Assembly: GCA_002238765.1 (NCBI GenBank)
Contig: MPMZ01000021.1
Coordinates: 1-45,336 of the forward strand
From: Nitrospira sp. bin75
GTDB taxonomy: Bacteria > Nitrospirota > Nitrospiria > Nitrospirales > UBA8639
DNA: 45,336 nucleotides
Reading direction: 5' to 3'
The notes under the pieces were generated by a model. It made no database searches. It had not been told where the DNA came from and saw only the letters and a list, made by a program, of their open reading frames with translations. A program made the position numbers and the translations under genes. Position 1 is the first letter of the stretch, and every line of letters begins with the position of its first letter. This document shows positions 1,955-45,336 of this stretch, in pieces.

Positions 1955-1983
1955 TTGGCCCTCTTCGGCGCCTGGGGTATACT
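1955..1983 (+). promoter_or_regulatory. Candidate sigma-70 promoter
   Basis: TTGGCC (1955-1960) and TATACT (1978-1983) are separated by 17 bp, a good match to -35/-10 spacing. It lies upstream of, and divergent from, the 728-1861 gene and would start a transcript near 1990 that runs through the structured region ending at the terminator at 2642-2680. Confidence 0.45.
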
Positions 1984-1989
1984 GGCTTC

Positions 1990-2680
1990 ATTGCTCAAAA
2001 ACCCCGGATTTCTTTCTTCTTTGGTACGTGAGTTTCACCGGGGTTCTCTGGTACCCGAAAAGACGGTCTTGCTTCCTGCTTTCGGCGAGGGGTTTCCGTC
2101 TTGTCCTCCGCCTTTGTGTCCAGGCAGCGTTGGCGAATGTCTGCCGGTGCCGGCCTTCGGACCTGAAGAAGACCCTCACGGTCTTGCTTCAGGGTCAGTC
2201 CATAACCCTTTGCTGTTTGACCGCGCCAGCCTGATGGCGTCCTCCATAAACCACTCAGCGTAGTTCTCCAACCCTGAAGGAGGCGATGGCCTTGTTCACG
2301 GTGCAACTTAAACCTTTCGGGCTCCGCGGAGGCGTCGAAGTAGTGACGTTGGCGGAGGCCCTTGAGCGTGATACCCGAACCGTGGAACGGGTAAGGATTC
2401 CCGTACGCGGTGCAGCAATGAATCTGATGGCTTTAGCAACCCAACTGACCTGCATGGTCGGTGCCACCCGCAAAGGCGTCCCGAGACGCCACCTGCACAG
2501 CGCCCCCAGGCGTATCATGGTCGACGTCCAGTCGACTTACCGCCTTGGGCATTGCGTGCAGCAATGCAGGGGATGCGAGCCCGGCGTCTAGCCGCAGGCG
2601 AGCAGGCCCCAAGAGACGCCATCCCGCTACGTGGGCGGGAGATGCGTCACTGACGCGTCCAGCGCAGTGACGCATTTTTG
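1990..2680 (+). ncRNA. Candidate structured RNA transcription unit (may contain a 101-residue ORF)
   Basis: A stretch of about 690 bp with a promoter at its start and a strong intrinsic terminator at its end, but no recognisable protein. It has a dense run of perfect hairpins on the + strand: GGCGTC/GACGCC with a 4-nt loop (2475-2490), GTCGAC/GTCGAC with a 5-nt loop (2520-2536), GCATTGC/GCAATGC with a 5-nt loop (2549-2567), GGCGTCT/AGACGCC enclosing 24 nt (2583-2620), TCCCGC/GCGGGA (2622-2640), then the terminator. A further imperfect hairpin lies at about 2159-2199. An ORF 2286-2591 has an excellent AAGGAGG site before ATG 2286, but its product (Arg/Thr-rich, no family) is unconvincing after about residue 60. 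Either a structured RNA or a small gene with a structured 3' region. Confidence 0.4.
2642..2680 (+). terminator. Rho-independent terminator
   Basis: Perfect 11-bp stem ATGCGTCACTG / CAGTGACGCAT (2642-2652 and 2665-2675) with a 12-nt loop, directly followed by a T run (2675-2679). It ends the structured transcription unit before the recombinase gene. Confidence 0.8.
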
Positions 2681-2972
2681 AAGCGTCTTGTAACTGTTTG
2701 TCCTTCAAGGACATGGCAGGACTTTGGGATTGAATTCCTTCCCGTGCCCTGCCCGTGACGGACCCGGCCGTGTCCGCGCTTTCCAGAGCGTTAACCATGA
2801 CGGCTTGCGGTAACCGTGCAACTGCCTTCGAGGCGGTTGCCGTCCAATAAAAGGCAGCCTTTGAGCGCTGTATGGACAAGGCGCAACCCCGCGCCCTTGG
2901 GCCCTTTAAGCCATCCCGCCTGCGGCGTGGATGCGGGCCACTTACTCTCACCACACGGAAGACCATCGGGGT

Positions 2973-3860
2973 ATGTTACAGATCGAGTTTGAGCTCAGGA
3001 AGATGTGCCGCGAGCACCGTGTTGACGGGCGTACCACGCAGAGCGACCGCCTGGAACTGGCGGCTACCATCGCACGCGATCTTGATGCCTGTGGCTATCA
3101 CAGATTCTCCCGCCAGAAGAGCTGTTCCAGGAAGCTGAAAGACAAGCACGTGCGCGGCCTCGTCCAGCACTGGACGGGGAAGGGGCTGAGCCCCGGAACG
3201 ATCAACAACCGGCTGGCCTTCTTAAGGCTTGTCTGTGACTGGACCGGGCGTGGCGGCGTCATGTCGAAGCGTAACGCCGACTACCACGAAGGCAAGCGGA
3301 TTCGTGAGGCTACGGTGAGTAAGGCGGCCTATGTCGGGACGGAGGTCCTGAACCGGGTCCGCAACCGCTACGCGCAGGCCTCTCTGAGGCTCCAGGTGGC
3401 CTTCGGGCTGCGCCGCAAGGAGGCGCTGATGATCCAGCCCGACTGGGCGGACCGTGGCAACCGCATCGTCCTGCAGGACACCTGGACCAAGGGCGGCAGG
3501 CCACGGGAGATTCCGATTACCACCCAGGCGCAGCGCCAGGCCCTGGACCACGCCAAGGCGGTGGCCGGCAAGGGCTCGATGATCCCGCCTTCCCTGTCGT
3601 ACAAGGGCTACCGGGACGGGCTGTGGCAGAATGCTTGCAGGAGCATCGGCCTGACAGGCACGCACGGCTTCCGCCATGCCTACGCCCAGGACCGCTACGA
3701 GGCGCTGGCGGGCTTTCCATGTCCGGTACGCGGCGGGCCGAAGAGAGACGAGATGACGGCTGAGCAATTGCAGCTGGACGAGTGGGCCAGAGGCCGGGTG
3801 TCGGCGGAGCTCGGTCACGGGAGGCGGAGGGTAGTTGAAGCCTACTGCGGGAAGGGGTAA
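2973..3860 (+). CDS. Tyrosine recombinase / integrase
   Basis: 295 residues from ATG 2973; an upstream ATG at 2931 would add 14 residues, but the text upstream of 2973 (ATCGGGGT) is the better ribosome site. Tyrosine recombinases cut and rejoin DNA at short core sites through a 3'-phosphotyrosine. The catalytic set is visible: Arg147 (FGLRRKEAL), a Lys in the beta hairpin (DTWTKGGRPREIP), H231-x-x-R234 (THGFRHAYAQDR), His282 (ELGHGRRR) and Tyr291 (VEAYCGKG) close to the C-terminus. It belongs with plasmid or ICE 'integrase domain-containing' proteins and is a relative of the enzyme at 32711-33625. It is followed at once by a small DNA-binding-like protein. No attachment site could be identified. 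Confidence 0.85.
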   Translation: MLQIEFELRKMCREHRVDGRTTQSDRLELAATIARDLDACGYHRFSRQKSCSRKLKDKHVRGLVQHWTGKGLSPGTINNRLAFLRLVCDWTGRGGVMSKRNADYHEGKRIREATVSKAAYVGTEVLNRVRNRYAQASLRLQVAFGLRRKEALMIQPDWADRGNRIVLQDTWTKGGRPREIPITTQAQRQALDHAKAVAGKGSMIPPSLSYKGYRDGLWQNACRSIGLTGTHGFRHAYAQDRYEALAGFPCPVRGGPKRDEMTAEQLQLDEWARGRVSAELGHGRRRVVEAYCGKG

Positions 3861-3866
3861 GAGTAG

Positions 3867-4163
3867 ATGGCTAAATCGACAAGGGTGACGTTCGAGCTGC
3901 CGCCGGCGTCGCACAGGGTCCTGGAGCAAGCGGCACAGGAAAACGGCATCAACGTGCAGGCGGCCGCATCGCTCATCCTGCAGGCGGCGCTGGCAAGGCG
4001 GGTCAGCGGCCTGGTACCGAAGCGACCGCAGAAGGCGAAGAACGGATCGGGCGACAGGGCGCCGGCTGAGCCCCCGGTTGCCGCTACTTCAGGCCCTGGC
4101 AGTCCCAGGGCTACCGATGCAACGCCGTCCCCCGGTCCTTCGCAAGGCTCTGAAGCGGTGTAG
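3867..4163 (+). CDS. Small ribbon-helix-helix-like DNA-binding protein
   Basis: 98 residues, starting 6 bases after the recombinase stop, with AAGGGGTAAGAG upstream. The first 50 residues (TRVTFELPPASHRVLEQAA, then a helix ending LILQAALARR) have the alternating beta strand followed by two helices typical of ribbon-helix-helix repressors and of partition or antitoxin proteins. The C-terminal half is low-complexity Pro/Ala/Ser and probably disordered. Co-transcription with the recombinase suggests a regulator or accessory DNA-binding factor. The fold is inferred from pattern only. Confidence 0.55.
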   Translation: MAKSTRVTFELPPASHRVLEQAAQENGINVQAAASLILQAALARRVSGLVPKRPQKAKNGSGDRAPAEPPVAATSGPGSPRATDATPSPGPSQGSEAV

Positions 4164-4427: not shown

Positions 4428-4512
4428 CGAGTCCGTGCCCAGACGGCTCGTCGTGTTCTTTCCGGAGTCGTACATCGTGCACGAGGAATTCGTTACGTGT
4501 TCAACATCCTGA
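4411..4512 (+). pseudogene. DUF5615 PIN-like toxin, truncated to its N-terminus
   Basis: MKLLLDESVPRRLVVFFPES is the typical first strand and helix of DUF5615/Mut7-C-like PIN ribonucleases, with the first catalytic Asp (D6). Similarity ends after about 22 residues and the frame stops at 4510-4512, whereas normal members are about 110 residues long. The lost part has been replaced by the start of cas8e, whose GTG (4497) lies within the remnant. The break at about 4475-4495 is the left boundary of the cas operon. Confidence 0.75.
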
Positions 4513-6068
4513 CCGAACCCCTGATTCAGACTCGTACGGGACAGGACATGCGCGTGATGTCTCTCCCTGAGGTCTACGCGAAATTAATGGCAGATAACGT
4601 GGACGCCTTCCCGGCCCTTCGGCCTCACCAGCGTCACGCCTGGCACGCCTTCCTGGTGCAGCTTGGAGCCATGGCGATGCACAGGGCCGAGGTGAACGAG
4701 CCACCGCGTGACCCGGGGCAATGGGCCGCGCTGTTGCGAGGACTTACGCCCGACTCTCCGGACGACGCGCCTTGGCACGTGGTAGTGGATGACCTCATCA
4801 AACCCGCCTTCATGCAGCCGCCGGCCCGTACCGTGGACCGGAAAAGAGAGTACAAGATCAACGTGGCAACGCCCGACCAGCTGGACATGCTGATCACTGC
4901 CAAGAATCATGACTTGAAGGCTGCGGTTGCAGTCCGGGCCGGCATTGACGACTGGCTTTTCGCGCTGATCACGCTGCAGACGATGCAGGGTTTCAGTGGC
5001 GGTGGGAGTTATGGTATCTCCCGAATGAACGGCGGGTTAGCCAGCCGACCCATGTTAACGATGACCCCTTCCAGCCGGGTGGGGGCGCACGTGCGGCGGG
5101 ACATCATGGCGGTGCTGGAGTATCGTCCGAGGCTGCTGGCGCAATTTACAATGACCGAAGGCGGCGCCGGGCTCCTGTGGATTTTGCCCTGGGACGGCGG
5201 AGCAGAAGAAGCCTTGGCTGTCGACGGCCTGGAGCCTTTGTATATTGAAGTGTGCCGCCGCATCCGGTTGAGCATCGACGCGAGCGGGAATCTGTATGGC
5301 ATGCGGGCTGCTTCCAAGGCAACTCGGGTTGCAGGTAAGGAGCTCAAGGGACGAACGGGCGACCCGTGGGTGCCCGTCAATCCGCGTTGGAAAGGCCTGC
5401 CCCTGACCCCCAAAATTGGCTGTTTTACCTACAGAAAGATCACGGATTATTTGACTGATTGGGAGTTGCCGCCGTTGATGCGGCCAACGGAATCCGAGAA
5501 CCAGGCGCCGCAACCCATGCAACTGGTGGCGCGCGCCCTGGTGCGAGGGCAGGGCATAACTGCGGGCTATCATGAACGTATCATTCCGGTGCGACACAAG
5601 GCCGTGCAGTCGCTTGGAAAACCGGCCGAGGCGCTGGAACTCGGAATTATCGCCCGAGAGCGGGTGACTCAGGTAGGCGTTGTCCAACGCATCCTGCGGC
5701 GGGCGATTCAGGTTTTCGCGGCGCGTGGCGACCTCGGCAAGATCACCACCGAGCACCGGTCGCTGGCCCAGCCGTGGGTGAACAAACACGATGAAATCAT
5801 CGACCGCACGTTTTTCGAAGCGTTGCAAACCGAGTTCGAGGCCCCCGGCGAGCGCGAAGGCATCCGCAAAGCGTGGCTCATGAACGGCAGAGACGGCGTT
5901 GTCGACCACGCCCGCCGCCTTCTTCACGCCGCTGCGGACACCCTGCCTTGCCTGGGCGTCTACCGCTACCGGGCGCGTGCCAACGCCGGGGAACTGTTTG
6001 AGGGAGGACTTCGGGCCGATAGCGGACTGCCGTTTCTCTTTTCGACGCGCAACAGGGAAGACCAATAG
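4497..6068 (+). CDS. cas8e: Type I-E Cascade large subunit Cas8e (Cse1/CasA)
   Basis: 523 residues, normal for the family. Cas8e recognises the PAM, holds the non-target strand and, in complete systems, recruits Cas3. The N-terminus (MFNILTEPLIQTRTGQ) and the ALRPHQRHAWHAFLVQLGAM segment are typical. The PAM-sensing loop is preserved at about residues 168-185 (GGGSYGISRMNGGLASRP). A four-helix C-terminal region is consistent with residues 360-510. The start is GTG 4497, preceded by GAGGAA. It is the first gene of a tightly packed operon; its stop TAG overlaps the GTG of cse2. In standard I-E loci cas3 stands directly upstream; here that place is taken by broken toxin-antitoxin genes. No HNH or other nuclease insertion is visible. 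Confidence 0.93.
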   Translation: MFNILTEPLIQTRTGQDMRVMSLPEVYAKLMADNVDAFPALRPHQRHAWHAFLVQLGAMAMHRAEVNEPPRDPGQWAALLRGLTPDSPDDAPWHVVVDDLIKPAFMQPPARTVDRKREYKINVATPDQLDMLITAKNHDLKAAVAVRAGIDDWLFALITLQTMQGFSGGGSYGISRMNGGLASRPMLTMTPSSRVGAHVRRDIMAVLEYRPRLLAQFTMTEGGAGLLWILPWDGGAEEALAVDGLEPLYIEVCRRIRLSIDASGNLYGMRAASKATRVAGKELKGRTGDPWVPVNPRWKGLPLTPKIGCFTYRKITDYLTDWELPPLMRPTESENQAPQPMQLVARALVRGQGITAGYHERIIPVRHKAVQSLGKPAEALELGIIARERVTQVGVVQRILRRAIQVFAARGDLGKITTEHRSLAQPWVNKHDEIIDRTFFEALQTEFEAPGEREGIRKAWLMNGRDGVVDHARRLLHAAADTLPCLGVYRYRARANAGELFEGGLRADSGLPFLFSTRNREDQ

Positions 6069-6700
6069 TGGCAGTCACAGCGGTAACCGGACGGGTTGGC
6101 GCCGCCGGCGAGCGGGAAGACCGTAGAACATGGGGCGGCTATGCTACTGGCTTCGCCCAGCAAATGTCCGGTGCCAACTTCCGTCGCGGGGACTTGGCGC
6201 AGTTGCGTCGCATGAACCCGGACACGCCCGACGCGCCGGTATACTGGCGGCTGCTGGCCAGCCGGGAATTACTGGGCGATCCCGAGTGGGAACGCAAGTG
6301 GGCCTTGATCCTCCACGGCATAGCCCTGATGACCCGGGCCCCCATTGGAGCGCAGGTCGGCCGAGTCGCCCACGATAACCAGACGCCTGTGGGCCGCGCG
6401 TTGTTCCAGGGCGGCGAAGCCGGCCGACGGGAATCCGGCTATTTCAGCGAGTCGCGCCTGAGTCGCCTTCTCACGGCGCGCGGCCCGGCCCTGCGCGCGT
6501 TGCTCGGGAGAATGTTCCGCATGATGGCCGCCGCCAATCAGCCGTTCAACTGGTTCGAAATGGCGCGCCTTATACTTTGCGAGGGACACGACGAGGAAGG
6601 CACGGAACAGGCCCGCCACCGCATCGCCAGGGAGTATTACCGGGCGGAGCAACGCAGCCTGCGCACCGCCGGCGAGCAACGCCGCAGCACCGGAGCCTGA
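6068..6700 (+). CDS. cse2: Type I-E Cascade small subunit Cse2 (CasB)
   Basis: 210 residues from GTG 6068, overlapping the cas8e stop (TAGTG). Cse2 forms a dimer along the belly of Cascade and stabilises the crRNA-target hybrid. Family signs are the WGGYATGFAQQM start, ARLRR-like basic patch (GDLAQLRRMNPD), the SESRLSRLL motif near residue 126 and the FNWFEMARLILCEG segment near residue 160. Length is slightly above the usual 160-200. Its close packing with the neighbouring genes indicates translational coupling. Confidence 0.88.
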   Translation: MAVTAVTGRVGAAGEREDRRTWGGYATGFAQQMSGANFRRGDLAQLRRMNPDTPDAPVYWRLLASRELLGDPEWERKWALILHGIALMTRAPIGAQVGRVAHDNQTPVGRALFQGGEAGRRESGYFSESRLSRLLTARGPALRALLGRMFRMMAAANQPFNWFEMARLILCEGHDEEGTEQARHRIAREYYRAEQRSLRTAGEQRRSTGA

Positions 6701-6704
6701 AAAA

Positions 6705-7880
6705 ATGGTCACCGCAAAGTTCCTGCAGATTCACACCCTGCATTCGTATCCGGCCGCGCTTCTGAACAGGGATGACAGCGGGCTGGCCAAGAGACTGCCT
6801 TTTGGTGACGTGGTGCGCACCCGTATTTCGTCACAATGTCTGAAGCGTCACTGGCGCATGGCCCAGGATGAATTTGCTCTCTCTGCCATCGTACCGGACG
6901 CGGACGCGATACGCTCCCGCAACGTCGTGGATCGCGAAGTGATCGAGCCGCTCCAGAAAGCCGGACGGGTCACTGAGGACGTGCTGACGGCTGTACAGGG
7001 CGCTTTCAACGTCGGCGTCTACGGCAGCGGCGGGACGGCGGAAGCCGGGCGTCAACCCCTGTTGCTCGGCTTGCCCGAAGTGACCTATCTGCGTGAAAAG
7101 GCTGCGCTCATCTGCGACGCCTACCCGGCTGACGCCAAAGCGGCTGCCGCTGCGGCTGCCGACCTGTTCCGCGCGCGCGGAAGCGAAGGCGCCAATTTCG
7201 CCGCATTTCGCGATGCCGCCCGGTTGCCCGGCGGGCTGGTGGGCGCCCTCTTCGGGCGCATGGTCACGTCCGACCCCGCCGCCAACATCGACGCTGCCAT
7301 TCACGTGGCGCACGCCTTCACAGTGCACCGGGAGGAGAACGAAAGCGATTATTTCGCCGTGGTCGACGACCTGCGGCGAGACGACGAAAGCGCCGGGGCC
7401 GCCCACATTGGCGACATGGAATTGACCGCCGGGTTGTTCTATGGCTACGTTGTGGTGCACGTTCCCGGTCTCGTCTCTAATCTGGAGGGCTGCTCGCCTA
7501 AAGACTGGCAGGACGCAGACCGCGGCATCGCCGGTCAGGTCGTGGACCATCTCCTTCGTCTTATTGCCACTGTGTCGCCTGGTGCCAAGCTGGGTTCTAC
7601 CGCACCCTACGGCTATGCCGAACTCATGCTGATCGAGGCTGGCAGCCGGCAGCCTCGCAGTCTGGCGAATGCCTTTCGCATTCCGGTAAGAGCCCAGGTC
7701 GAGCCGGCAGTATCGGCATTGGCAGAGGAGTTGCAAGGCCTGGACGGCATGTACGGCGTCAAGGAGGTGCGGCGCATCAGCTCAAAGAAGGATCATGGCA
7801 TTCCCGACACGGAGCGTATCGACCTCGACGGCTTGGCAAGCTGGGCTGCCGGTGCCGTGCGCAAGGGTGAGGCGGTGTAG
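6705..7880 (+). CDS. cas7e: Type I-E Cascade backbone subunit Cas7e (Cse4/CasC)
   Basis: 391 residues from ATG 6705, four bases after cse2. Cas7e is the RRM-fold subunit that polymerises along the crRNA spacer. Recognisable pieces are FLQIHTLHSYPAALLNRDD at the N-terminus, RTRISSQCLKRHWR near residue 45 and the C-terminal glycine-containing strand GAKLGSTAPYGYAELMLIE. Length is within the family's range. No frameshifts or stops, so the backbone gene seems under selection despite the missing cas3 and cas1-cas2. Confidence 0.92.
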   Translation: MVTAKFLQIHTLHSYPAALLNRDDSGLAKRLPFGDVVRTRISSQCLKRHWRMAQDEFALSAIVPDADAIRSRNVVDREVIEPLQKAGRVTEDVLTAVQGAFNVGVYGSGGTAEAGRQPLLLGLPEVTYLREKAALICDAYPADAKAAAAAAADLFRARGSEGANFAAFRDAARLPGGLVGALFGRMVTSDPAANIDAAIHVAHAFTVHREENESDYFAVVDDLRRDDESAGAAHIGDMELTAGLFYGYVVVHVPGLVSNLEGCSPKDWQDADRGIAGQVVDHLLRLIATVSPGAKLGSTAPYGYAELMLIEAGSRQPRSLANAFRIPVRAQVEPAVSALAEELQGLDGMYGVKEVRRISSKKDHGIPDTERIDLDGLASWAAGAVRKGEAV

Positions 7881-7882
7881 AG

Positions 7883-8710
7883 TTGCGCCATCTGATTTTG
7901 GCTCTGGAAGCACCCCTGATGGCTTTTGGCGGCGAGACCATTGACGCCCGCGGCGTCATCCGTTGGTTTCCGGCGGCCTCGATGCTGACCGGGCTTTTCG
8001 GCAATGCCCTGGGATGGCGGCGGGAGGAACACGAGCGGCACCCACGGCTTCAAGACCGGCCGGGGGGGGAGGCACACGCGCGGCACCAACGGCTTCAAGC
8101 CCGGCTGGTGTTCGCCGCCCGTATTGATCGGGAACCTGTCGGCAGCTCACGGATGACCGACTTTCAGACTGCCCGGCTCCGTGCCGACGACCGCGGCTGG
8201 ACAACCCGGGGGGCGCCGGAAGGCAGGGGCGGCGCGCCAGGCACCTACAACGCACCGCATCTGCGCTACCGAGACTACTTCGCCGACATGCGGGTGGTCG
8301 TGGCCCTTCGGTTGGAACCCGACGACGAAACGCCCGAGCTGGACGCCTTGGCGTCGGCGCTGCAGGAACCGGAGCGGCCGCTGTTCATCGGGCGCAAGTC
8401 ATGCCTGCCGACGGTGCCGCTGTTCGCGGGCTTCGGCGAAGCGGATACCTGTCTGACGGCTCTGCTCGCCTGGCCCTTGGGCGAGGGCCCCGCCGCCACG
8501 CCGTCATATCCGGAAAATCGGCGTCTCCTGTGGCCCGACGGCGAGGGCAGTGAAAGCGTTACAGCCAGCCACTCCTATCTTCTCACCGACCAACGCAACT
8601 GGCGTACCGGCCTGCACGGCGGCGGGCGCATCGTGTGCGAGGGCGCAGTGTCTCATGACATGTTCGTCCCATCCGCGGGGTCGCCGGGATCTCAGCAAGC
8701 GGGAGGGTAG
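7883..8710 (+). CDS. cas5e: Type I-E Cascade subunit Cas5e (CasD) with internal 15-residue duplication
   Basis: 275 residues from TTG 7883, two bases after the cas7e stop. Cas5e caps the 5' handle of the crRNA. The RRM start (HLILALEAPLMAFGG), GVIRWFPAASMLTGLFGNALGW, and LVFAARIDREP are standard. Between the last two there is a direct 45-bp duplication (units starting at 8024 and 8069) that repeats the ERHPRLQDR-type segment as ARHQRLQAR, an in-frame addition of 15 residues not usual in the family. The rest (GTYNAPHLRYRDYFADMRV, LFIGRKSCLP) is intact. No HNH insertion. The duplicated piece probably lies in a surface loop before the conserved VFAARID strand. Confidence 0.9.
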   Translation: MRHLILALEAPLMAFGGETIDARGVIRWFPAASMLTGLFGNALGWRREEHERHPRLQDRPGGEAHARHQRLQARLVFAARIDREPVGSSRMTDFQTARLRADDRGWTTRGAPEGRGGAPGTYNAPHLRYRDYFADMRVVVALRLEPDDETPELDALASALQEPERPLFIGRKSCLPTVPLFAGFGEADTCLTALLAWPLGEGPAATPSYPENRRLLWPDGEGSESVTASHSYLLTDQRNWRTGLHGGGRIVCEGAVSHDMFVPSAGSPGSQQAGG

Positions 8711-9782: not shown

Positions 9783-9820
9783 CGGGTCGGTTGCGGATGG
9801 GGGCGAAATGACACTCTAAG
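9783..9820 (+). repeat. Left 38-bp terminal inverted repeat, transposon copy 1
   Basis: Begins CGGGTCGGTTGCGGATGG and ends ACACTCTAAG; it is the exact reverse complement of 13554-13591. The length of 38 bp is standard for the Tn3 family. Confidence 0.95.
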
Positions 9821-9826
9821 GGCAAG

Positions 9827-12715
9827 TCAACGCCTTTTTGACCACCTGTATTCGCCGTTGATCAGGAGATGTCCCCATCCGAGGGGTGAAGTGTGCGGCA
9901 GGAGCTCGGGGTCAACGGGTAGGCCGGCGCGCCTTCGCCTGGCGACTGCTTCACCCAGGCGGGCGGTGTTCCAGTAGATGACGATGGCGGCCAACAGGTT
10001 GAGGCCTGCCATGCGGTAGTGCTGACCCTCCGTGCTGCGGTCCCTGATCTCTCCCTGGCGTCCGATGCGGAGGGCATTCTTCAGGGCGTGGTGGGACTCC
10101 CCCTTGTTGAGTCCGATCTGGGCTCGCCGCTGCATGGCCGGATCCAGGGCCCAGTCGATCATGAAGAGGGTGCGCTCGATGCGGCCGACTTCACGCAGCG
10201 CCGTGGCGAGGTCGTTTCGGCGCGGATAGGCGGCCAGCTTGCGCAGGATCAGGCTGGGAGCAACCGTCCCCGCGGCCAGGGTCGCGCCGAGCCGCAGGAT
10301 GTCGGGCCAGTTCGAGGCGATCAGCGACTGGCGCAGCTTGCCGCCGATGAGGCCGCGCAGTTCCCTCGGGCAGGCGGCGGGATCGAAGAGATAGATACGC
10401 TTGGAGGGCAGGTCGCGGATGCGCGGCACGAAGCGGTAGCCCAGGATCGAAGTGACGGCGAAGACGTGGTCGGTGAAACCGCCGGTGTCGGCGTACTGCT
10501 CGCGGATGTGGCGACCGGTCTCGTTCATCAGCAGGCCGTCCAGGATGTAGGGCGCCTCGCCCGCTGTTGCCGGAATGATCTGGGTGGCGAAGGGCCCGAA
10601 ACGGTCCGACACGTGGGTGTAGGCCTTGAGTCCGGGCTCGTTTCCGTACCTGGCATTGACCAGGTTCATGGCCTCGCCCTGGCGCGTTGTCGGAAAGAAC
10701 TGGCCGTCGCTCGACGCGGTGGTCCCCGGGCCCCAGAACTTGGCCATGGGGAGTCTGGCTTGTGCCTCGATGACCATTTCCAGGGCACGGGCGAAAGCGT
10801 TGCCTTCGACGTGCCAGCGTGAGAGCCGCATGAGTTCCCAGTAGTCGTGGGTGTTGGTGGAGTCGGCCATCTTGCCGAGACTGAGGTTGATGCCTTCGGC
10901 CAGGAGGACGTTGAGGAGGCCGATCCTGTCCCTGCAGGGGGCTCCGGTGCGCAGGTGAACGAAGGCGTCCGTGAAGCCGACCTCGGCATCGACCTCCATG
11001 AGGAGGTCGGTGATGCGCGTCTCCGGGAGGCGCTTGTAGAGATCGAGGATGAGCTCGTCGGCTCCTTCCGGTGTGTCGGCGGTGAGCCGGTCGATGTTGA
11101 GACCGCCGTCGCGAATGACGCCGCCAGGGATGGCTCCGGTCCGCGCCGCCTTGGTTAGTCTGTCCAGTCCGTATGTCATCCACGCCTGACGGTCGGCCAG
11201 CCACACGCCGGCGTCGAGCGGCACGGCCAATGCGGCATTGCTCGTTGTGGTCGGCAGCGGCACCAGTGCCCGCGTCGGGTCGCTGTGGCGCCGTGAGCGC
11301 GGCAGCCAGATGTCGCCGGACCGGAAGCCGTCGCGCAGGTGGGACAGGACGGCCACCTCCCAGAGCCGCTTGTCGCCCTTGGGCTGCGCATCGAGATGCC
11401 GGTGCCACTTGGAAGTCGGACGCAGAAAGGTTCTTGGATTGTCGTGGCTGTGGCCGTCACGGATCAGGCCGGCGGCCTCCCGTAGAGGTTTTGCAACCGG
11501 GGCGCCCTGGATATCGAGGGCCCGCAGCATGCGCGGGGCGTAGCGCCGGAGGCGTCCGTATCCCTGCGTCACGTGGGCGAGCGGGTCGTTCGAAATGGTG
11601 TCGGTCAGACGTTCGGCCACGGCCACCAGGTCCTGAAGCCCATCCCAGCCGAGCTTGCCCGGCACGGCCTGTGCGAGCATGGCGGGTTGATGCCTGGCCT
11701 CGAGCAGTGCCTGCCCGAGATCAGCGAAGGACCTGAGGGTACGGCGAACCGTTGTCCTGGCGTCAGCAATACGGGCGTCACAGATCTTTTCTGCCTCCCG
11801 CCAGGTCCTGCCGACGATGCGGTCATGGGTCTCGACGAGAGTGTCAGCGAGAGCGGCCTGCCATTCCACGACACACACCGCCAGGATGGCCAGGCGCCGG
11901 TTGTCCAGCATCTCGCGCAGGCCGTCGGCGAAGTGTCGTTCCCCCTGTCTTCTCAGGCGGGCGACGCGGTGGGCGGGGAGGTCTTCGAGGATCTGTTCGG
12001 AGAGACCGAGGCTTTGCAGAAACTCCAGGCGCTCCAGCAGGCGTCCGGCGGCAGCGGCATTGTTGCCCGGTTCGGACTGCCGTAGCCAGACGAAGCGCGT
12101 CGTGCGGTTTTCCAGCGTTTCCGTAAGCAGGCTGTCGAGAGCCATTCGTGTGGCGGCGTCGAGACGGCCGGCGATTTTTTCCTCGATTCGCCGCTCGGCT
12201 GCCACGGCAGCGTCGGCGCACAGGCGTTCGAGTGTTGTGACCGCAGGCAGGATGACCTGCCTTATTTGGCATTCCTCGACGAAGCGTCTTGCCAGCTCTT
12301 CGTTGGAGCGCGCTTCCTCGGCCTGCCCGTCCAGCCAGGACCTCAGGTCCCTGGCCGTGCGTCCGGCGAACGGGCGGTATCCGTAGATCGAGCGTAGCGC
12401 CGTCATGTGTTCCTGGCGCGTCTGCCGGCGCGCTGCATAGGGCAGCAGGGACTCCACGACGATGCCCAGCTGGGCGCCGATGAAGGCCACGACCGCCGAC
12501 GGAATCAGTTCGCCGGGCTGCAGCACGCGACCGGGATAACGCAGGGCGCAGAGCTGAAGGGCGAAGCCGAGGCGGTTTTCGTCACGCCGACGCCGGCCGA
12601 TGTATTCCAGGTCGTCGTCGGCCAGGGTGTAGTGCCTCCTTAGCGACGGCTCGTCGGTTGGCAGATCGAACAAGGCGGACCGCTGCCGGTCCGTGAGAAC
12701 GGTTCGTCGGGGCAT
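9827..12715 (-). CDS. tnpA: Tn3-family transposase TnpA, copy 1
   Basis: 962 residues, the usual size for Tn3 transposases, which join transposon ends to a target by replicative transposition and leave a cointegrate. The start is taken at ATG 12715 (MPRRTVLTDRQRSALFDLPT), the conserved N-terminus; the frame is open 46 codons further but that part is not family-like. Visible family segments include HYTLADDDLEYIGRRRRDEN, LGFALQLCALRYPGR, the DDE-domain piece DGQFFPTTRQGEAMNLVNAR and the C-terminal GLNKGESHHALKNALRIGRQ and GLNLLAAIVIYWNTARL. The stop lies 6 bp inside the left inverted repeat. It is probably co-transcribed with tnpR, 43 bp upstream. Confidence 0.95.
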   Translation of the reverse strand: MPRRTVLTDRQRSALFDLPTDEPSLRRHYTLADDDLEYIGRRRRDENRLGFALQLCALRYPGRVLQPGELIPSAVVAFIGAQLGIVVESLLPYAARRQTRQEHMTALRSIYGYRPFAGRTARDLRSWLDGQAEEARSNEELARRFVEECQIRQVILPAVTTLERLCADAAVAAERRIEEKIAGRLDAATRMALDSLLTETLENRTTRFVWLRQSEPGNNAAAAGRLLERLEFLQSLGLSEQILEDLPAHRVARLRRQGERHFADGLREMLDNRRLAILAVCVVEWQAALADTLVETHDRIVGRTWREAEKICDARIADARTTVRRTLRSFADLGQALLEARHQPAMLAQAVPGKLGWDGLQDLVAVAERLTDTISNDPLAHVTQGYGRLRRYAPRMLRALDIQGAPVAKPLREAAGLIRDGHSHDNPRTFLRPTSKWHRHLDAQPKGDKRLWEVAVLSHLRDGFRSGDIWLPRSRRHSDPTRALVPLPTTTSNAALAVPLDAGVWLADRQAWMTYGLDRLTKAARTGAIPGGVIRDGGLNIDRLTADTPEGADELILDLYKRLPETRITDLLMEVDAEVGFTDAFVHLRTGAPCRDRIGLLNVLLAEGINLSLGKMADSTNTHDYWELMRLSRWHVEGNAFARALEMVIEAQARLPMAKFWGPGTTASSDGQFFPTTRQGEAMNLVNARYGNEPGLKAYTHVSDRFGPFATQIIPATAGEAPYILDGLLMNETGRHIREQYADTGGFTDHVFAVTSILGYRFVPRIRDLPSKRIYLFDPAACPRELRGLIGGKLRQSLIASNWPDILRLGATLAAGTVAPSLILRKLAAYPRRNDLATALREVGRIERTLFMIDWALDPAMQRRAQIGLNKGESHHALKNALRIGRQGEIRDRSTEGQHYRMAGLNLLAAIVIYWNTARLGEAVARRRRAGLPVDPELLPHTSPLGWGHLLINGEYRWSKRR

Positions 12716-12758
12716 GGTCGGCTCAGTTCCAGAAAGGGGTTGGATGAGGGAGATGGGA

Positions 12759-13358
12759 TCAGGCGTCAAGAAGCCGTATGCCCGGCTCCTTGAGTGTCCC
12801 GTCGGCGTGCAGGTAGTGGTAGAGCGTGCTCGCGGGGATGCTGCCGAGTTCACGGCAGATATCGGGTATCGAGCGTGTCTGGTCGGCCATGAGGGTTTGG
12901 GCGTAGCGCAGCTTCTCAGGGGTCATGACGCGGGGACGGCCGCCTTTGCGTCCACGCGCCCGTGCAGCCTTGACGCCCTCGCGGATGCGCTGGCGGATGA
13001 CGTTGCGCTCCATCTCCGCGAAGGCTGCCTGGATCTGCAGGAAGGCACGGCCCGCCGGCTCGGTGGTGTCCATCGGCGAATTGAGGGCGCGGAATCCGAT
13101 GCCGCGGTGGTCGAGTTCGTCGATCAAGGCGATGAGCTCACCCGCCCGGCGGCCCAGGCGGTCGAGGTCGAGGACGACCAGGACGTCGTCCTTGCGCAGG
13201 TAATCCAGACAGGCGGCCAGTTCCGGTCGATGGGAGGCTCCGGAAGCGCGGTCCTCGAATACGCGCTCGCACCCGGCGTCGTTCAGGGCATCGAGTTGGC
13301 GGTCGAGTACCTGACGGCCTTCGGCAGTGGATACCCGGGCGTAGCCAATGAGTCCCAT
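12759..13358 (-). CDS. tnpR: Serine recombinase (resolvase) TnpR, copy 1
   Basis: 199 residues. Small serine recombinases resolve Tn3 cointegrates at res through a 5'-phosphoserine. Ser10 sits in GYARVSTAEG; LDRLGRR near residue 80, FAEMERNVIRQRIREGVKAA and the hinge before a C-terminal helix-turn-helix (IPDICRELGSIPASTLYHYL) are all in place. No defect is visible in the protein, so failure to resolve the present structure would have to come from res, expression or recency. It is transcribed first, then tnpA, both away from the right end. Confidence 0.93.
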   Translation of the reverse strand: MGLIGYARVSTAEGRQVLDRQLDALNDAGCERVFEDRASGASHRPELAACLDYLRKDDVLVVLDLDRLGRRAGELIALIDELDHRGIGFRALNSPMDTTEPAGRAFLQIQAAFAEMERNVIRQRIREGVKAARARGRKGGRPRVMTPEKLRYAQTLMADQTRSIPDICRELGSIPASTLYHYLHADGTLKEPGIRLLDA

Positions 13359-13553
13359 GGGATGATGTCCTCTCGGTCTCGAAAAAGATGTTCTGAGGAC
13401 ATTCTATCGTAAAAAGATAACTTCTGGGTTGTCGTGAGAATTTGGCGGCAGAAAGCCAATCGTGGCAGCGTATCGCGGCGGGTTACGACAAAGTAGTGAT
13501 ATTCGTGGATGCGAAGGCGAGGTTATGAGGGAGTGGTGAGAGGGCCTCGGGCG
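13359..13553. promoter_or_regulatory. Putative res site and tnpR promoter, copy 1
   Basis: The 195 bp between the tnpR start and the right terminal repeat hold no gene. They include an inverted pair ATGTCCTC / GAGGACAT (13365-13372 and 13395-13402) just before tnpR and an AT-rich stretch (TTCTATCGTAAAAAGATAAC), as expected for resolvase subsites. A 30-bp stretch at 13486-13515 recurs outside the transposon at 16571-16600 (26 of 30 bases). Confidence 0.55.
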
Positions 13554-13591
13554 CTTAGAGTGTCATTTCGCCCCCATCCGCAACCGACCCG
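13554..13591 (-). repeat. Right 38-bp terminal inverted repeat, transposon copy 1
   Basis: Exact reverse complement of 9783-9820; it ends CAACCGACCCG and abuts CATTA of the methyltransferase gene. Confidence 0.95.
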
Positions 13592-18199: not shown

Positions 18200-18700
18200 G
18201 GCAGGTGGCGTGTCGGATGCCCCCCAGATCGCCTCAGAGGCAAAAACTACTCGAACCCGAACATTCCCATCCTGAGCCAAAAAACGACTCAGAATCGATC
18301 CTCGCGCGACATTCGCCCTATCCTGATCCGGCCCGTTACCCCATTTCGCTCTCGGCCGTGTCGGGAGGCTTCTCGCAGCCGCCCGCTCAAGATTCCCCAC
18401 CCGCCAGCCGAAACTCCGTGCCTTTCGCACCCGGCTCCCCACTGCCAGGGGATGATTTCGGCGTTTTCCGGGCATCCGGTGAGGCGTCCCGAGGGTCTGC
18501 GCCGCCAATACGCGCAAGTCCAGCAACGGCGCGGGTTTCCGCGTCTGCGAAAGTTTACATAAGAGGGCTTATCGGCAGTTGGCCGCCAGACGCACGAACG
18601 CCCCGAGGGCCGACTTCCCCCCGAGGCGCTCGTATCTACATCGCTCCGTGACTGCACGACGAGTGCAGCGAGAGCATCATAGCACCAAAGGCAACGTATT
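18200..18700 (-). ncRNA. Repeated promoter-hairpin-terminator module, copy Y
   Basis: Read on the minus strand: an extended -10 TGCTATGAT (18676-18684), a hairpin TGCAC/GTGCA, a GC-rich hairpin starting GCGCCTCGGGGGGAAG, then GGGTTTCCGCGTC-type and CACCGGATGCCCGG segments, GTGGGGAATCTTGAGCGGG, and a terminator-like GAATCGATTCTGAG followed by TCGTTTTTTGG. The same order occurs on the + strand at 27285-27694, and the first third at 24097-24240. No ORF is shared among the copies. The conservation of paired bases and the terminator suggest an RNA. It points towards the exported-protein gene. Confidence 0.5.
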
Positions 18701-24049: not shown

Positions 24050-24096
24050 ACCCACACCCTTCCCAACTTCGACCATGCCCGGCAGGTTGACTCTGG

Positions 24097-24240
24097 TGTT
24101 ATGATGCTCTCGCTGCGCTCGTAGCGCAGTCACGAAGCAAGAAGCGATGAAGACGAGCGCCTCGGGGGGAAGTCAGCCCCCGGGGCGTTCGTGCGTTCGG
24201 CGGCCAACTTCCGATAGGGCGTCTTATGTCGCCTTTGGGT
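24097..24240 (+). ncRNA. Repeated promoter-hairpin module, copy W (core only)
   Basis: Extended -10 TGTTATGAT (24097-24105), perfect hairpin TGCGCT-CGT-AGCGCA (24114-24128), GTCACGAAGCAAGAAGC, then an 11-bp GC hairpin (CGCCTCGGGGG / CCCCCGGGGCG, about 24160-24188), TTCGTGCG, GGCCAACTTCCGATA and a final TTATGTCGCCTTTGG. Copies Y and Z have the same core. A second hairpin with a possible terminator follows (GCCCCGCCGGGG, about 24248). The predicted transcript is about 80-120 nt. Confidence 0.5.
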
Positions 24241-27284: not shown

Positions 27285-27694
27285 CCGATAGGGCCCGTTA
27301 TATCGCCTTTGGTGCTATGATGTTGCCGCTGCGCTCGTAGCGCAGTCACGGAGCAAGAAGCAAGATACGGCGCCTCGGGGGGAGTCGGCCCCCGGGGCGT
27401 TCGTGCGTCTGGCCGTCAACTTCTCATAAGTGCCATTATGTCAACTTTCGGAAACGCGGAAACCCGCGCCGTTGCTGGACTTGCGTGGTTCCGGCCTGAA
27501 GTCTCTCGAAACGCCCCACCGGAAGCCGGGAAAAGACCGGATTTGGGCCCGAGCGGTGGGATAGAATTATCAGGAATGCCCGTTTTTGGGCCGTGAAGTG
27601 GGTAATTTCGAGCGGATGGGGGTTCGGGTATGGAGGTTTTCTAGGGTACCCCAAAAAAACGCCCCAGAATCGATTCTGGGGCGTTTTTTTGGGG
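27285..27694 (+). ncRNA. Repeated promoter-hairpin-terminator module, copy Z (complete)
   Basis: Extended -10 TGCTATGAT at 27313-27321; hairpin TGCGCT-CGT-AGCGCA at 27330-27344; GC hairpin around 27371-27400; then TTATGTCAACTTTCGG, GCGGAAACCCGCGCCGTTGC, CCCCACCGGAAGCCGGG, GTGGGTAATTTCGAGCGG, and the perfect terminator at 27649-27694. Compared with copy Y the order is kept over about 400 bp with many substitutions. It precedes the nuclease-like gene at 27725 on the same strand, so it may be its leader or an independent RNA. Confidence 0.55.
27649..27694. terminator. Perfect 46-bp palindromic bidirectional terminator
   Basis: CCCC-A7-CGCCCCAGAAT / ATTCTGGGGCG-T7-GGGG: every base of the 46 pairs. 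The A/T tracts on both sides make it a terminator in either direction. It isolates module Z from the gene at 27725. Partial relatives of its AGAATCGATTCT centre occur in modules X and Y and at about 34770. Confidence 0.85.
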
Positions 27695-41527: not shown

Positions 41528-41565
41528 CGGGTCGGTTGCGGATGGGGGCGAAATGACACTCTAAG
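41528..41565 (+). repeat. Left 38-bp terminal inverted repeat, transposon copy 2
   Basis: Same sequence as 9783-9820. Confidence 0.95.
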
Positions 41566-41571
41566 GGCAAG

Positions 41572-44460
41572 TCAACGCCTTTTTGACCACCTGTATTCGC
41601 CGTTGATCAGGAGATGTCCCCATCCGAGGGGTGAAGTGTGCGGCAGGAGCTCGGGGTCAACGGGTAGGCCGGCGCGCCTTCGCCTGGCGACTGCTTCACC
41701 CAGGCGGGCGGTGTTCCAGTAGATGACGATGGCGGCCAACAGGTTGAGGCCTGCCATGCGGTAGTGCTGACCCTCCGTGCTGCGGTCCCTGATCTCTCCC
41801 TGGCGTCCGATGCGGAGGGCATTCTTCAGGGCGTGGTGGGACTCCCCCTTGTTGAGTCCGATCTGGGCTCGCCGCTGCATGGCCGGATCCAGGGCCCAGT
41901 CGATCATGAAGAGGGTGCGCTCGATGCGGCCGACTTCACGCAGCGCCGTGGCGAGGTCGTTTCGGCGCGGATAGGCGGCCAGCTTGCGCAGGATCAGGCT
42001 GGGAGCAACCGTCCCCGCGGCCAGGGTCGCGCCGAGCCGCAGGATGTCGGGCCAGTTCGAGGCGATCAGCGACTGGCGCAGCTTGCCGCCGATGAGGCCG
42101 CGCAGTTCCCTCGGGCAGGCGGCGGGATCGAAGAGATAGATACGCTTGGAGGGCAGGTCGCGGATGCGCGGCACGAAGCGGTAGCCCAGGATCGAAGTGA
42201 CGGCGAAGACGTGGTCGGTGAAACCGCCGGTGTCGGCGTACTGCTCGCGGATGTGGCGACCGGTCTCGTTCATCAGCAGGCCGTCCAGGATGTAGGGCGC
42301 CTCGCCCGCTGTTGCCGGAATGATCTGGGTGGCGAAGGGCCCGAAACGGTCCGACACGTGGGTGTAGGCCTTGAGTCCGGGCTCGTTTCCGTACCTGGCA
42401 TTGACCAGGTTCATGGCCTCGCCCTGGCGCGTTGTCGGAAAGAACTGGCCGTCGCTCGACGCGGTGGTCCCCGGGCCCCAGAACTTGGCCATGGGGAGTC
42501 TGGCTTGTGCCTCGATGACCATTTCCAGGGCACGGGCGAAAGCGTTGCCTTCGACGTGCCAGCGTGAGAGCCGCATGAGTTCCCAGTAGTCGTGGGTGTT
42601 GGTGGAGTCGGCCATCTTGCCGAGACTGAGGTTGATGCCTTCGGCCAGGAGGACGTTGAGGAGGCCGATCCTGTCCCTGCAGGGGGCTCCGGTGCGCAGG
42701 TGAACGAAGGCGTCCGTGAAGCCGACCTCGGCATCGACCTCCATGAGGAGGTCGGTGATGCGCGTCTCCGGGAGGCGCTTGTAGAGATCGAGGATGAGCT
42801 CGTCGGCTCCTTCCGGTGTGTCGGCGGTGAGCCGGTCGATGTTGAGACCGCCGTCGCGAATGACGCCGCCAGGGATGGCTCCGGTCCGCGCCGCCTTGGT
42901 TAGTCTGTCCAGTCCGTATGTCATCCACGCCTGACGGTCGGCCAGCCACACGCCGGCGTCGAGCGGCACGGCCAATGCGGCATTGCTCGTTGTGGTCGGC
43001 AGCGGCACCAGTGCCCGCGTCGGGTCGCTGTGGCGCCGTGAGCGCGGCAGCCAGATGTCGCCGGACCGGAAGCCGTCGCGCAGGTGGGACAGGACGGCCA
43101 CCTCCCAGAGCCGCTTGTCGCCCTTGGGCTGCGCATCGAGATGCCGGTGCCACTTGGAAGTCGGACGCAGAAAGGTTCTTGGATTGTCGTGGCTGTGGCC
43201 GTCACGGATCAGGCCGGCGGCCTCCCGTAGAGGTTTTGCAACCGGGGCGCCCTGGATATCGAGGGCCCGCAGCATGCGCGGGGCGTAGCGCCGGAGGCGT
43301 CCGTATCCCTGCGTCACGTGGGCGAGCGGGTCGTTCGAAATGGTGTCGGTCAGACGTTCGGCCACGGCCACCAGGTCCTGAAGCCCATCCCAGCCGAGCT
43401 TGCCCGGCACGGCCTGTGCGAGCATGGCGGGTTGATGCCTGGCCTCGAGCAGTGCCTGCCCGAGATCAGCGAAGGACCTGAGGGTACGGCGAACCGTTGT
43501 CCTGGCGTCAGCAATACGGGCGTCACAGATCTTTTCTGCCTCCCGCCAGGTCCTGCCGACGATGCGGTCATGGGTCTCGACGAGAGTGTCAGCGAGAGCG
43601 GCCTGCCATTCCACGACACACACCGCCAGGATGGCCAGGCGCCGGTTGTCCAGCATCTCGCGCAGGCCGTCGGCGAAGTGTCGTTCCCCCTGTCTTCTCA
43701 GGCGGGCGACGCGGTGGGCGGGGAGGTCTTCGAGGATCTGTTCGGAGAGACCGAGGCTTTGCAGAAACTCCAGGCGCTCCAGCAGGCGTCCGGCGGCAGC
43801 GGCATTGTTGCCCGGTTCGGACTGCCGTAGCCAGACGAAGCGCGTCGTGCGGTTTTCCAGCGTTTCCGTAAGCAGGCTGTCGAGAGCCATTCGTGTGGCG
43901 GCGTCGAGACGGCCGGCGATTTTTTCCTCGATTCGCCGCTCGGCTGCCACGGCAGCGTCGGCGCACAGGCGTTCGAGTGTTGTGACCGCAGGCAGGATGA
44001 CCTGCCTTATTTGGCATTCCTCGACGAAGCGTCTTGCCAGCTCTTCGTTGGAGCGCGCTTCCTCGGCCTGCCCGTCCAGCCAGGACCTCAGGTCCCTGGC
44101 CGTGCGTCCGGCGAACGGGCGGTATCCGTAGATCGAGCGTAGCGCCGTCATGTGTTCCTGGCGCGTCTGCCGGCGCGCTGCATAGGGCAGCAGGGACTCC
44201 ACGACGATGCCCAGCTGGGCGCCGATGAAGGCCACGACCGCCGACGGAATCAGTTCGCCGGGCTGCAGCACGCGACCGGGATAACGCAGGGCGCAGAGCT
44301 GAAGGGCGAAGCCGAGGCGGTTTTCGTCACGCCGACGCCGGCCGATGTATTCCAGGTCGTCGTCGGCCAGGGTGTAGTGCCTCCTTAGCGACGGCTCGTC
44401 GGTTGGCAGATCGAACAAGGCGGACCGCTGCCGGTCCGTGAGAACGGTTCGTCGGGGCAT
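41572..44460 (-). CDS. tnpA: Tn3-family transposase TnpA, copy 2
   Basis: 962 residues, identical to copy 1 (9827-12715), start ATG 44460. The same transposase domains are present and there are no differences, so the duplication is very recent or kept uniform by recombination. Confidence 0.95.
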   Translation of the reverse strand: MPRRTVLTDRQRSALFDLPTDEPSLRRHYTLADDDLEYIGRRRRDENRLGFALQLCALRYPGRVLQPGELIPSAVVAFIGAQLGIVVESLLPYAARRQTRQEHMTALRSIYGYRPFAGRTARDLRSWLDGQAEEARSNEELARRFVEECQIRQVILPAVTTLERLCADAAVAAERRIEEKIAGRLDAATRMALDSLLTETLENRTTRFVWLRQSEPGNNAAAAGRLLERLEFLQSLGLSEQILEDLPAHRVARLRRQGERHFADGLREMLDNRRLAILAVCVVEWQAALADTLVETHDRIVGRTWREAEKICDARIADARTTVRRTLRSFADLGQALLEARHQPAMLAQAVPGKLGWDGLQDLVAVAERLTDTISNDPLAHVTQGYGRLRRYAPRMLRALDIQGAPVAKPLREAAGLIRDGHSHDNPRTFLRPTSKWHRHLDAQPKGDKRLWEVAVLSHLRDGFRSGDIWLPRSRRHSDPTRALVPLPTTTSNAALAVPLDAGVWLADRQAWMTYGLDRLTKAARTGAIPGGVIRDGGLNIDRLTADTPEGADELILDLYKRLPETRITDLLMEVDAEVGFTDAFVHLRTGAPCRDRIGLLNVLLAEGINLSLGKMADSTNTHDYWELMRLSRWHVEGNAFARALEMVIEAQARLPMAKFWGPGTTASSDGQFFPTTRQGEAMNLVNARYGNEPGLKAYTHVSDRFGPFATQIIPATAGEAPYILDGLLMNETGRHIREQYADTGGFTDHVFAVTSILGYRFVPRIRDLPSKRIYLFDPAACPRELRGLIGGKLRQSLIASNWPDILRLGATLAAGTVAPSLILRKLAAYPRRNDLATALREVGRIERTLFMIDWALDPAMQRRAQIGLNKGESHHALKNALRIGRQGEIRDRSTEGQHYRMAGLNLLAAIVIYWNTARLGEAVARRRRAGLPVDPELLPHTSPLGWGHLLINGEYRWSKRR

Positions 44461-44503
44461 GGTCGGCTCAGTTCCAGAAAGGGGTTGGATGAGGGAGATG
44501 GGA

Positions 44504-45103
44504 TCAGGCGTCAAGAAGCCGTATGCCCGGCTCCTTGAGTGTCCCGTCGGCGTGCAGGTAGTGGTAGAGCGTGCTCGCGGGGATGCTGCCGAGTTCACGG
44601 CAGATATCGGGTATCGAGCGTGTCTGGTCGGCCATGAGGGTTTGGGCGTAGCGCAGCTTCTCAGGGGTCATGACGCGGGGACGGCCGCCTTTGCGTCCAC
44701 GCGCCCGTGCAGCCTTGACGCCCTCGCGGATGCGCTGGCGGATGACGTTGCGCTCCATCTCCGCGAAGGCTGCCTGGATCTGCAGGAAGGCACGGCCCGC
44801 CGGCTCGGTGGTGTCCATCGGCGAATTGAGGGCGCGGAATCCGATGCCGCGGTGGTCGAGTTCGTCGATCAAGGCGATGAGCTCACCCGCCCGGCGGCCC
44901 AGGCGGTCGAGGTCGAGGACGACCAGGACGTCGTCCTTGCGCAGGTAATCCAGACAGGCGGCCAGTTCCGGTCGATGGGAGGCTCCGGAAGCGCGGTCCT
45001 CGAATACGCGCTCGCACCCGGCGTCGTTCAGGGCATCGAGTTGGCGGTCGAGTACCTGACGGCCTTCGGCAGTGGATACCCGGGCGTAGCCAATGAGTCC
45101 CAT
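44504..45103 (-). CDS. tnpR: Serine recombinase (resolvase) TnpR, copy 2
   Basis: 199 residues, identical to copy 1 (12759-13358), with Ser10 in the ARVST motif. With two res regions in direct orientation this enzyme should be able to excise the 31.7-kb unit between them. Confidence 0.93.
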   Translation of the reverse strand: MGLIGYARVSTAEGRQVLDRQLDALNDAGCERVFEDRASGASHRPELAACLDYLRKDDVLVVLDLDRLGRRAGELIALIDELDHRGIGFRALNSPMDTTEPAGRAFLQIQAAFAEMERNVIRQRIREGVKAARARGRKGGRPRVMTPEKLRYAQTLMADQTRSIPDICRELGSIPASTLYHYLHADGTLKEPGIRLLDA

Positions 45104-45298
45104 GGGATGATGTCCTCTCGGTCTCGAAAAAGATGTTCTGAGGACATTCTATCGTAAAAAGATAACTTCTGGGTTGTCGTGAGAATTTGGCGGCAGAAAG
45201 CCAATCGTGGCAGCGTATCGCGGCGGGTTACGACAAAGTAGTGATATTCGTGGATGCGAAGGCGAGGTTATGAGGGAGTGGTGAGAGGGCCTCGGGCG
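45104..45298. promoter_or_regulatory. Putative res site, copy 2
   Basis: Same sequence as 13359-13553, direct orientation, 31745 bp away. Confidence 0.55.
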
Positions 45299-45336
45299 CT
45301 TAGAGTGTCATTTCGCCCCCATCCGCAACCGACCCG
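45299..45336 (-). repeat. Right 38-bp terminal inverted repeat, transposon copy 2
   Basis: Same sequence as 13554-13591, ending at the window edge. The cointegrate model predicts TTCAT as the next five bases. Confidence 0.95.

Follow-up and report, generated by a model that had tools for sequence, protein, structure and literature searches.

What is the role of the DNA that lies between a minus-strand gene (728-1861) and a tyrosine recombinase gene in Nitrospira sp. bin75, and in which hairpin follows hairpin? The stretch of contig MPMZ01000021.1 (GCA_002238765.1) that was analysed, called the window throughout, comprises 45,336 nt, and the feature under study occupies positions 1955-2680 (Table 1). 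A preliminary description had proposed a structured, probably non-coding transcription unit with a strong terminator, and had left a leader peptide or small gene as a second option.

Table 1. Features of the region and its surroundings, in window coordinates
Feature	Position	Strand	Remarks
Promoter-like pair TTGGCC-17-TATACT	1955-1983	+	L036 has TTGGTT-17-TATACT
Putative transcript, 5′ part	1990-2120	+ (strand not certain)	Two long-arm hairpins
Stretch without L036 counterpart	2121-2223		From the alignment
ORF with GGAGG ribosome site few bases before ATG	2286-2591	+	No coding signature; frame broken in L036
Hairpin ACTGACC.tgcat.GGTCGGT	2444-2462	+	L036 ACCGACT.tgcat.AGTCGGT: C-G to T-A, T-G to C-G
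Perfect hairpin GGCGTC.ccga.GACGCC	2475-2490	+	Lost in L036
Perfect hairpin GTCGAC.gtcca.GTCGAC	2520-2536	+	L036 compensatory, GTCGGC/GCCGAC
Perfect hairpin GCATTGC.gtgca.GCAATGC	2549-2567	+	L036 compensatory, GCGTTGC/GCAACGC
Short hairpin CGGC.gtcta.GCCG	2582-2594	+	L036: stem conserved, loop changed
Hairpin TCCCGC.tacgtgg.GCGGGA	2622-2640	+	L036: stem conserved, loop changed
Inverted repeat, core GTCACT...AGTGAC (previously called a terminator)	2642-2675	+	Family-wide; 32 bp identical in C114
Repeat-to-integrase stretch; place of R1 RNA in relatives	2681-2930	+	Structured, z -3.3; R1 not detected on this strand
Hairpin TGTCCT.tca.AGGACA	2699-2713	+	Identical in L036
Second box ending CCGTGACGG	2733-2761	+	Common to C114; echoed 3′ of repeat in many relatives
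Tyrosine recombinase, Integrase_1/Phage_int_SAM_2	2973-3860	+	Catalytic R, K, HxxRH, H and Y present
Small gene, weak ribbon-helix-helix (RHH) similarity	3867-4163	+	6 bp after recombinase

Flanking genes and the closest relative

The neighbouring recombinase was confirmed by its Pfam domains, Integrase_1 and Phage_int_SAM_2, and the recombinase alignment makes ATG 2973 a more likely start than 2931. The opposite neighbour had been called relaxase-like, which could not be confirmed: protein family searches with the product of the minus-strand gene matched no named family, and its AlphaFold model was useless (mean pLDDT 33). A search of 85k species genomes yielded one close homologue of the locus, the contig L036 from a MAG that carries the label Alphaproteobacteria. 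On this contig, minus-strand gene (58% identical), promoter, hairpins, integrase (79% identical) and small gene all follow one another as in the window; in several relatives, too, a small gene occupies the equivalent position.

Directly past the recombinase and a broken pair of small genes, reading of the ORFs pointed to type I-E-like CRISPR-Cas genes (4497-8710), a position which suggests that these cas genes lie on, or adjoin, a mobile element; one protein from this stretch was checked against Pfam and gave no match. Elsewhere in the window, an exact 3809-bp direct repeat (9783-13591 and 41528-45336) with 41-bp terminal inverted repeats has a transposon-like appearance, and its second copy reaches the contig end.

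Hairpins and fold of the region

The promoter-like pair of the preliminary description is present and kept in L036. With perfect hairpins defined by an arm of at least 6 and a loop of 3-12, 2470-2680 contains five (those beginning at 2475, 2520, 2549, 2622 and 2642), whereas 200 dinucleotide shuffles averaged 0.52 and never exceeded 3. The densest 210-bp hairpin step across the 45-kb window starts at 2521. The hairpins announced earlier are therefore real, but the statement that five perfect ones lie in the last 170 bp has to be amended, since only four of these five fall there and the fifth hairpin in that interval is the shorter CGGC.gtcta.GCCG. RNA folding of 2270-2690 (421 nt) gave z = -5.25. 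A scan of the window against Rfam, at gathering thresholds and at E<=5, returned nothing relevant; no family reached threshold, in agreement with the earlier failure to name one. DNA searches with the region in plasmids and 197 related genomes returned only the C114 repeat described below and two short matches. G124 has a match to window positions 2181-2222. The leader sequence was not found in viral contigs.

Comparison with L036 revealed that the best conserved stretch is 2001-2120 (89%). In every segment, the two-sequence alifold score was better than those of nearly all column shuffles, with z ranging from -2.4 to -4.8 and a value of -2.4 for 1990-2120. L036 retains four of the window's hairpins with arms of at least 6. 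Three helices (2444-2462, 2520-2536 and 2549-2567) change on both sides yet stay paired, two further helices keep their stems with changed loops, and the helix at 2475-2490 is lost. On the minus strand, 2176-2271 reads MENYAEWFMEDAIRLARSNSKGLWTDPEARP and resembles the C-terminal part of a thermonuclease, with no match in Pfam; it is possibly a gene remnant and lies mostly within the stretch absent from L036.

Coding potential of the open reading frame

The excellent ribosome site attributed to the ATG at 2286 is there, with GGAGG a few bases 5′, and the ATG itself is conserved in L036. A real small protein or leader peptide, with the hairpins as its structured tail and an ordinary terminator, would be in accordance with these features, with the TTTTT 3′ of the last hairpin, with one 3-nt in-frame gap between the two sequences, and with a frame-0 BLOSUM score for 2286-2466 that is slightly, but in this comparison with one homologue not significantly, above chance (p = 0.18). 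The substitution pattern speaks against it. Changes between the window and L036 are distributed over the three codon positions as 16/16/22 in 2286-2466, without the bias seen in the integrase (47/35/113), and a 13-bp indel breaks the frame of the ORF, whose stop is not conserved. As the preliminary description had stated, no protein could be recognised: the translation matches no Pfam, NCBIfam or PHROGs family, and no relatives were found in viral contigs. Moreover, the T-run after the last hairpin is missing in most relatives. Because the ORF carries no codon signature and its frame breaks, we favour a non-coding, structured region for 1955-2680, based on one close homologue, and regard a protein product as very improbable. 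Codon-like substitution without covariation, the pattern that would have spoken for a gene, was not what the alignment gave, and the proposal of a structured, probably non-coding unit thus holds for the putative transcript.

An inverted repeat upstream of the recombinase family

We compared 96 loci carrying relatives of the recombinase on plasmids, chromosomes and viral contigs. A perfect inverted repeat with the core GTCACT...AGTGAC (GTCCCT in one clade) recurs 260-1050 bp upstream of the recombinase gene, with one site per locus. It is present in 52 of the 85 Integrase_1/Phage_int_SAM_2 loci with enough upstream DNA, in contrast to none of 74 equal downstream stretches and an average of 0.1 after mononucleotide shuffling; in some loci of the family no such repeat was found. 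These counts show that our region ends with a copy of an inverted repeat commonly carried at this position by Integrase_1-family recombinase loci. This copy, with 11-bp arms, a 12-nt loop and then TTTTT, is terminator-like in look and had been taken for a strong terminator; our simple terminator scan did not list it because its loop exceeds the permitted 3-8 nt. Most relatives have no T-run there, and the element is better read as one instance of a conserved, family-wide hairpin site.

Outside the core, the arms vary among loci yet remain complementary. At outer stem positions 2-5, 57-60 of the 61 loci have a pair (58-60 with G-T), formed by several pair types, and positions 1-5 include 14 G-T/T-G cells and zero A-C/C-A cells. 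Stem length, with G-T pairs admitted, served to choose the candidate repeat in each locus, and this choice tilts the result towards pairing and wobble there; the asymmetry therefore supports a folded single strand without being decisive. An independent strict search, restricted to Watson-Crick pairs, likewise yielded variable but complementary arms. This is the pattern expected of a folded single strand, either RNA or the DNA strand being transferred; a duplex binding site could hardly account for it by itself, and we read the repeat as selected in its folded single-strand form. The stretch between repeat and gene is conserved and gene-poor, and many loci have a CGTGACGG-like box approximately 60-90 bp downstream of the repeat. 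Based on these relatives and on L036, the region 1955-2680 is shown, as far as its sequence can tell, to be a conserved and folded module, largely non-coding, that precedes the gene for an Integrase_1-family tyrosine recombinase.

Repeat copies elsewhere in the host genome

The 3.04-Mb host genome contains exactly three matches to CGTCACT-N4-30-AGTGACG, compared with zero for the reversed control pattern. One is the repeat in the window, and the other two (69-96 and 1122-1241) are located on a 4.8-kb contig, C114 (L005; G000:C114). One C114 copy is identical to the window's repeat over 32 bp, loop included, whereas this loop differs even in L036. The second box is also common to both, at spacings of 90 and 91 bp. 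C114 encodes an AAA_25 ATPase, and none of the five larger open frames scanned matched a tyrosine-recombinase family. The natural reading is that C114 may be a relaxase-free hitchhiker with a borrowed site.

C114 (L005:288-396) and the window (18464-18692, 24086-24229 and 27305-27534) also have in common a repeat of ~100-230 bp with 71-83% identity. A fragment of a second integrase occurs on another contig (L024; G000:C96, 9308-9610), near the contig end; it is 78% identical over residues 208-308 and has an internal stop.

A structured RNA between repeat and integrase

Six groups of relatives were compared for conservation, which increases at the repeat or close to it and, in most groups, is high again beside the integrase. 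Between the GTCACT repeat and the Integrase_1 genes, across Proteobacteria, we identified a predicted new structured RNA, R1, of ~155 nt with the core hairpin CGGGAGUGGUGUCCCG and the 3′ motif CAGAAACACUUACC. Among 18 sequences, 21 of 30 pairs are compensatory, with 90 two-sided cells compared with 25 after shuffling and at most 24 when slid. G-U cells (23) exceed A-C cells (6), which favours the integrase's strand as that of R1. A pseudoknot between the GUGU loop and the downstream ACAC motif, both invariant, is possible. R1 is carried by L046:484-640 and about 68 further loci; the R1 model, whose E-values are rough, detects it in most of the other loci compared. Its place is between repeat and integrase in all 45 loci where both were found, and no known RNA family occurs there among the 31 relatives' loci scanned. 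A single match (G158) across 396 genomes of the phylum indicates that the element is rare and patchy.

In the window's own genome, the R1 covariance model has no match at E<=1. A minus-strand match at 2012-2105 (10 bits) was rejected and is probably due to chance, as the core hairpin is missing and the homologous place in L036 reaches only 5 bits. The RNA of the window, if made, would have to be diverged from R1 or different to it.

Two Rfam sRNAs of unknown function belong to the same elements: STAXI (L035:3329-3471, Salmonella plasmid), which immediately precedes a copy of the repeat next to an Integrase_1 gene, and PAGEV (L026:348-565, pSIO1), in an element with the same recombinase and repeat. 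This setting connects both to a possible mobilisation module. Their presence would also fit a regulatory or plasmid-maintenance element, in which repeat and RNA control copy number, incompatibility or the expression of the integrase without serving directly as a DNA-processing site, as would the frequent ending of R1 within ~60 nt of the integrase start. Elsewhere, however, R1 lies 340-1020 nt from the gene and is therefore not simply a 5′ leader, and C114 carries repeats although its scanned frames match no tyrosine-recombinase family. We consider a purely regulatory role rather improbable.

Plasmids and coupling-protein genes

Coupling proteins serve relaxases. On pSIO1, the integrase is followed by a small gene and a VirD4-like coupling protein (T4SS-DNA_transf, E 1e-45); the coupling-protein gene of Pleionea begins 2 bp past the integrase; and the order integrase to coupling protein is likewise found in Psychrobacter and Acinetobacter plasmids. 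Coupling proteins of this subfamily are found in 42 PLSDB plasmid records, every one of which is typed non-mobilizable. In at least 25 of 40 listed plasmids, the integrase lies on the same strand just upstream of the coupling-protein gene, with two of these pairs counted across the record start. The majority are Acinetobacter baumannii plasmids that hardly differ from one another, so independent cases number about ten. Altogether, PLSDB types as non-mobilizable 119 of the 186 plasmids that carry a relative of the recombinase. Among the 96 loci examined, a coupling-protein gene lies beside the integrase in three; none was noticed in the window.

Folded single-strand recombination sites are known from integron attC and from phage sites used by Xer. 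The repeat could be such a site, used for integration, circularisation or dimer resolution, with the RNA regulating the integrase. The enzyme belongs to the same superfamily as those of the integron attC and Xer systems and has all catalytic residues, the outer stem is paired with a variable sequence in which wobble is allowed, and some loci of the family are chromosomal. This explanation is at odds with the linkage to coupling-protein genes in plasmids without a known relaxase and with the single site per locus, 260-1050 bp away from the gene, and it leaves the conserved RNA between site and gene unexplained; we judge it unlikely.

Discussion

The reading that we prefer, with a probability of about 0.55, is that the region is an oriT-like mobilisation module of a tyrosine-recombinase relaxase that includes a structured RNA. 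Several lines of evidence point to it: the occurrence of the repeat in upstream DNA (52/85 against 0/74 downstream) with an outer stem paired by varied pair types, the conserved and gene-poor stretch between repeat and gene, the position of R1 between repeat and integrase (45/45) with its 21 of 30 compensatory pairs, the integrase-to-coupling-protein order in plasmids typed non-mobilizable, the low number of repeats in the host genome (three, of which C114 carries two), and the precedent of SGI1, which has the same order. Four observations weigh against it, namely that a coupling-protein neighbour is present in only 3/96 loci and none was noticed in the window, that searches for R1 in the window and the rest of its genome were negative, so that the RNA there is deduced from one homologue, that the recombinase contains a core-binding domain, unlike MpsA, MobK and TcpM (PMC8152469), and that some family loci show no repeat.

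In this mechanism, the tyrosine recombinase would take the place of a classical relaxase. It would bind the folded GTCACT/AGTGAC hairpin together with the CGTGACGG box nearby, nick a single strand and pass it on to a coupling protein. The structured RNA, located 5′ of the repeat in the window and, in relatives, 3′ of it as R1, would be required to assemble or deliver that complex, a role modelled on that proposed for the sgm-sRNA of SGI1. The matching repeats of C114 would allow that element to be mobilised in trans. The conserved non-protein stretch would then probably belong to an unrecognised DNA-transfer system, with a recombinase as nicking enzyme and a structured RNA. A more tentative generalisation, which we put forward as a possibility, is that Integrase_1/Phage_int_SAM_2 proteins form a large unrecognised family of conjugative relaxases, borne by plasmids at present typed non-mobilizable, for which the folded GTCACT/AGTGAC hairpin is the oriT and a dedicated structured RNA is required. 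R1 and its diverged counterparts, that of the window included, would make an RNA part of the DNA-transfer machine.

If the recombinase is a relaxase and the hairpin its origin of transfer, many plasmids typed non-mobilizable could be transferred, unnoticed by mobility typing. The link to R1 would make it testable whether SGI1 stands alone with its sgm-sRNA or exemplifies an RNA component that is common in conjugation. With the repeat core and the R1 model, elements of this kind can be searched for, even relaxase-free ones such as C114.

Comparison with known systems

The known tyrosine-recombinase relaxases are TcpM and MobK, with MpsA of SGI1 as the presumed third (PMC6414798, PMC9299015, PMC8152469). 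The putative relaxase of the window has in common with MobK (pIGRK) and TcpM (pCW3), MOBM, the tyrosine-recombinase fold, the catalytic residues and inverted repeats upstream of the gene, which belong to the oriT in the known systems and to a putative oriT in the window; in contrast, MobK and TcpM have no core-binding domain and no reported RNA. For a relaxase role of the window's protein, the support comes from gene neighbourhoods in plasmids. The likeness to STAXI (RF01728, PMC2864571) and PAGEV (RF03037) lies in the shared elements and, for STAXI, in the place just upstream of the same repeat; scored against both Rfam models, the window and L036 stay below threshold. Intrinsic terminators resemble the last hairpin in its GC-rich stem and TTTTT, and differ from it in that the T-run is absent in most relatives, the loop has 12 nt and the core GTCACT is conserved.

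Transfer of SGI1 needs an sRNA that is cut from a 650-700 nt transcript also carrying the small ORF S022 with an ideal SD, and its oriT lies within the 3′ part of S022 (PMC6414798, PMC9299015). The layout of the SGI1 module (oriT, mpsA/mpsB and sgm-sRNA) recurs in the window as a promoter, a small ORF with an ideal SD, GC-rich inverted-repeat DNA, a tyrosine-recombinase gene, a small gene after it and a predicted structured RNA by the putative oriT. The GC-rich hairpin DNA overlaps the end of the ORF, and the terminal repeat lies ~690 nt from the presumed start, which would give the putative transcript a length similar to that of the SGI1 primary transcript. Both proteins belong to the tyrosine-recombinase family, with R, K, H, R, H and Y as the catalytic residues of the window's integrase. 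They differ in that the latter carries the core-binding domain (Phage_int_SAM_2) itself, whereas that of MpsA is supplied separately by MpsB (integrase SAM-like), and in that the small partner in the window looks weakly RHH-like rather than like an MpsB-type SAM domain. Compared by layout and not by sequence, and with no membership claimed, the module of the window may work like the oriT/mpsA/sgm-sRNA module of SGI1.
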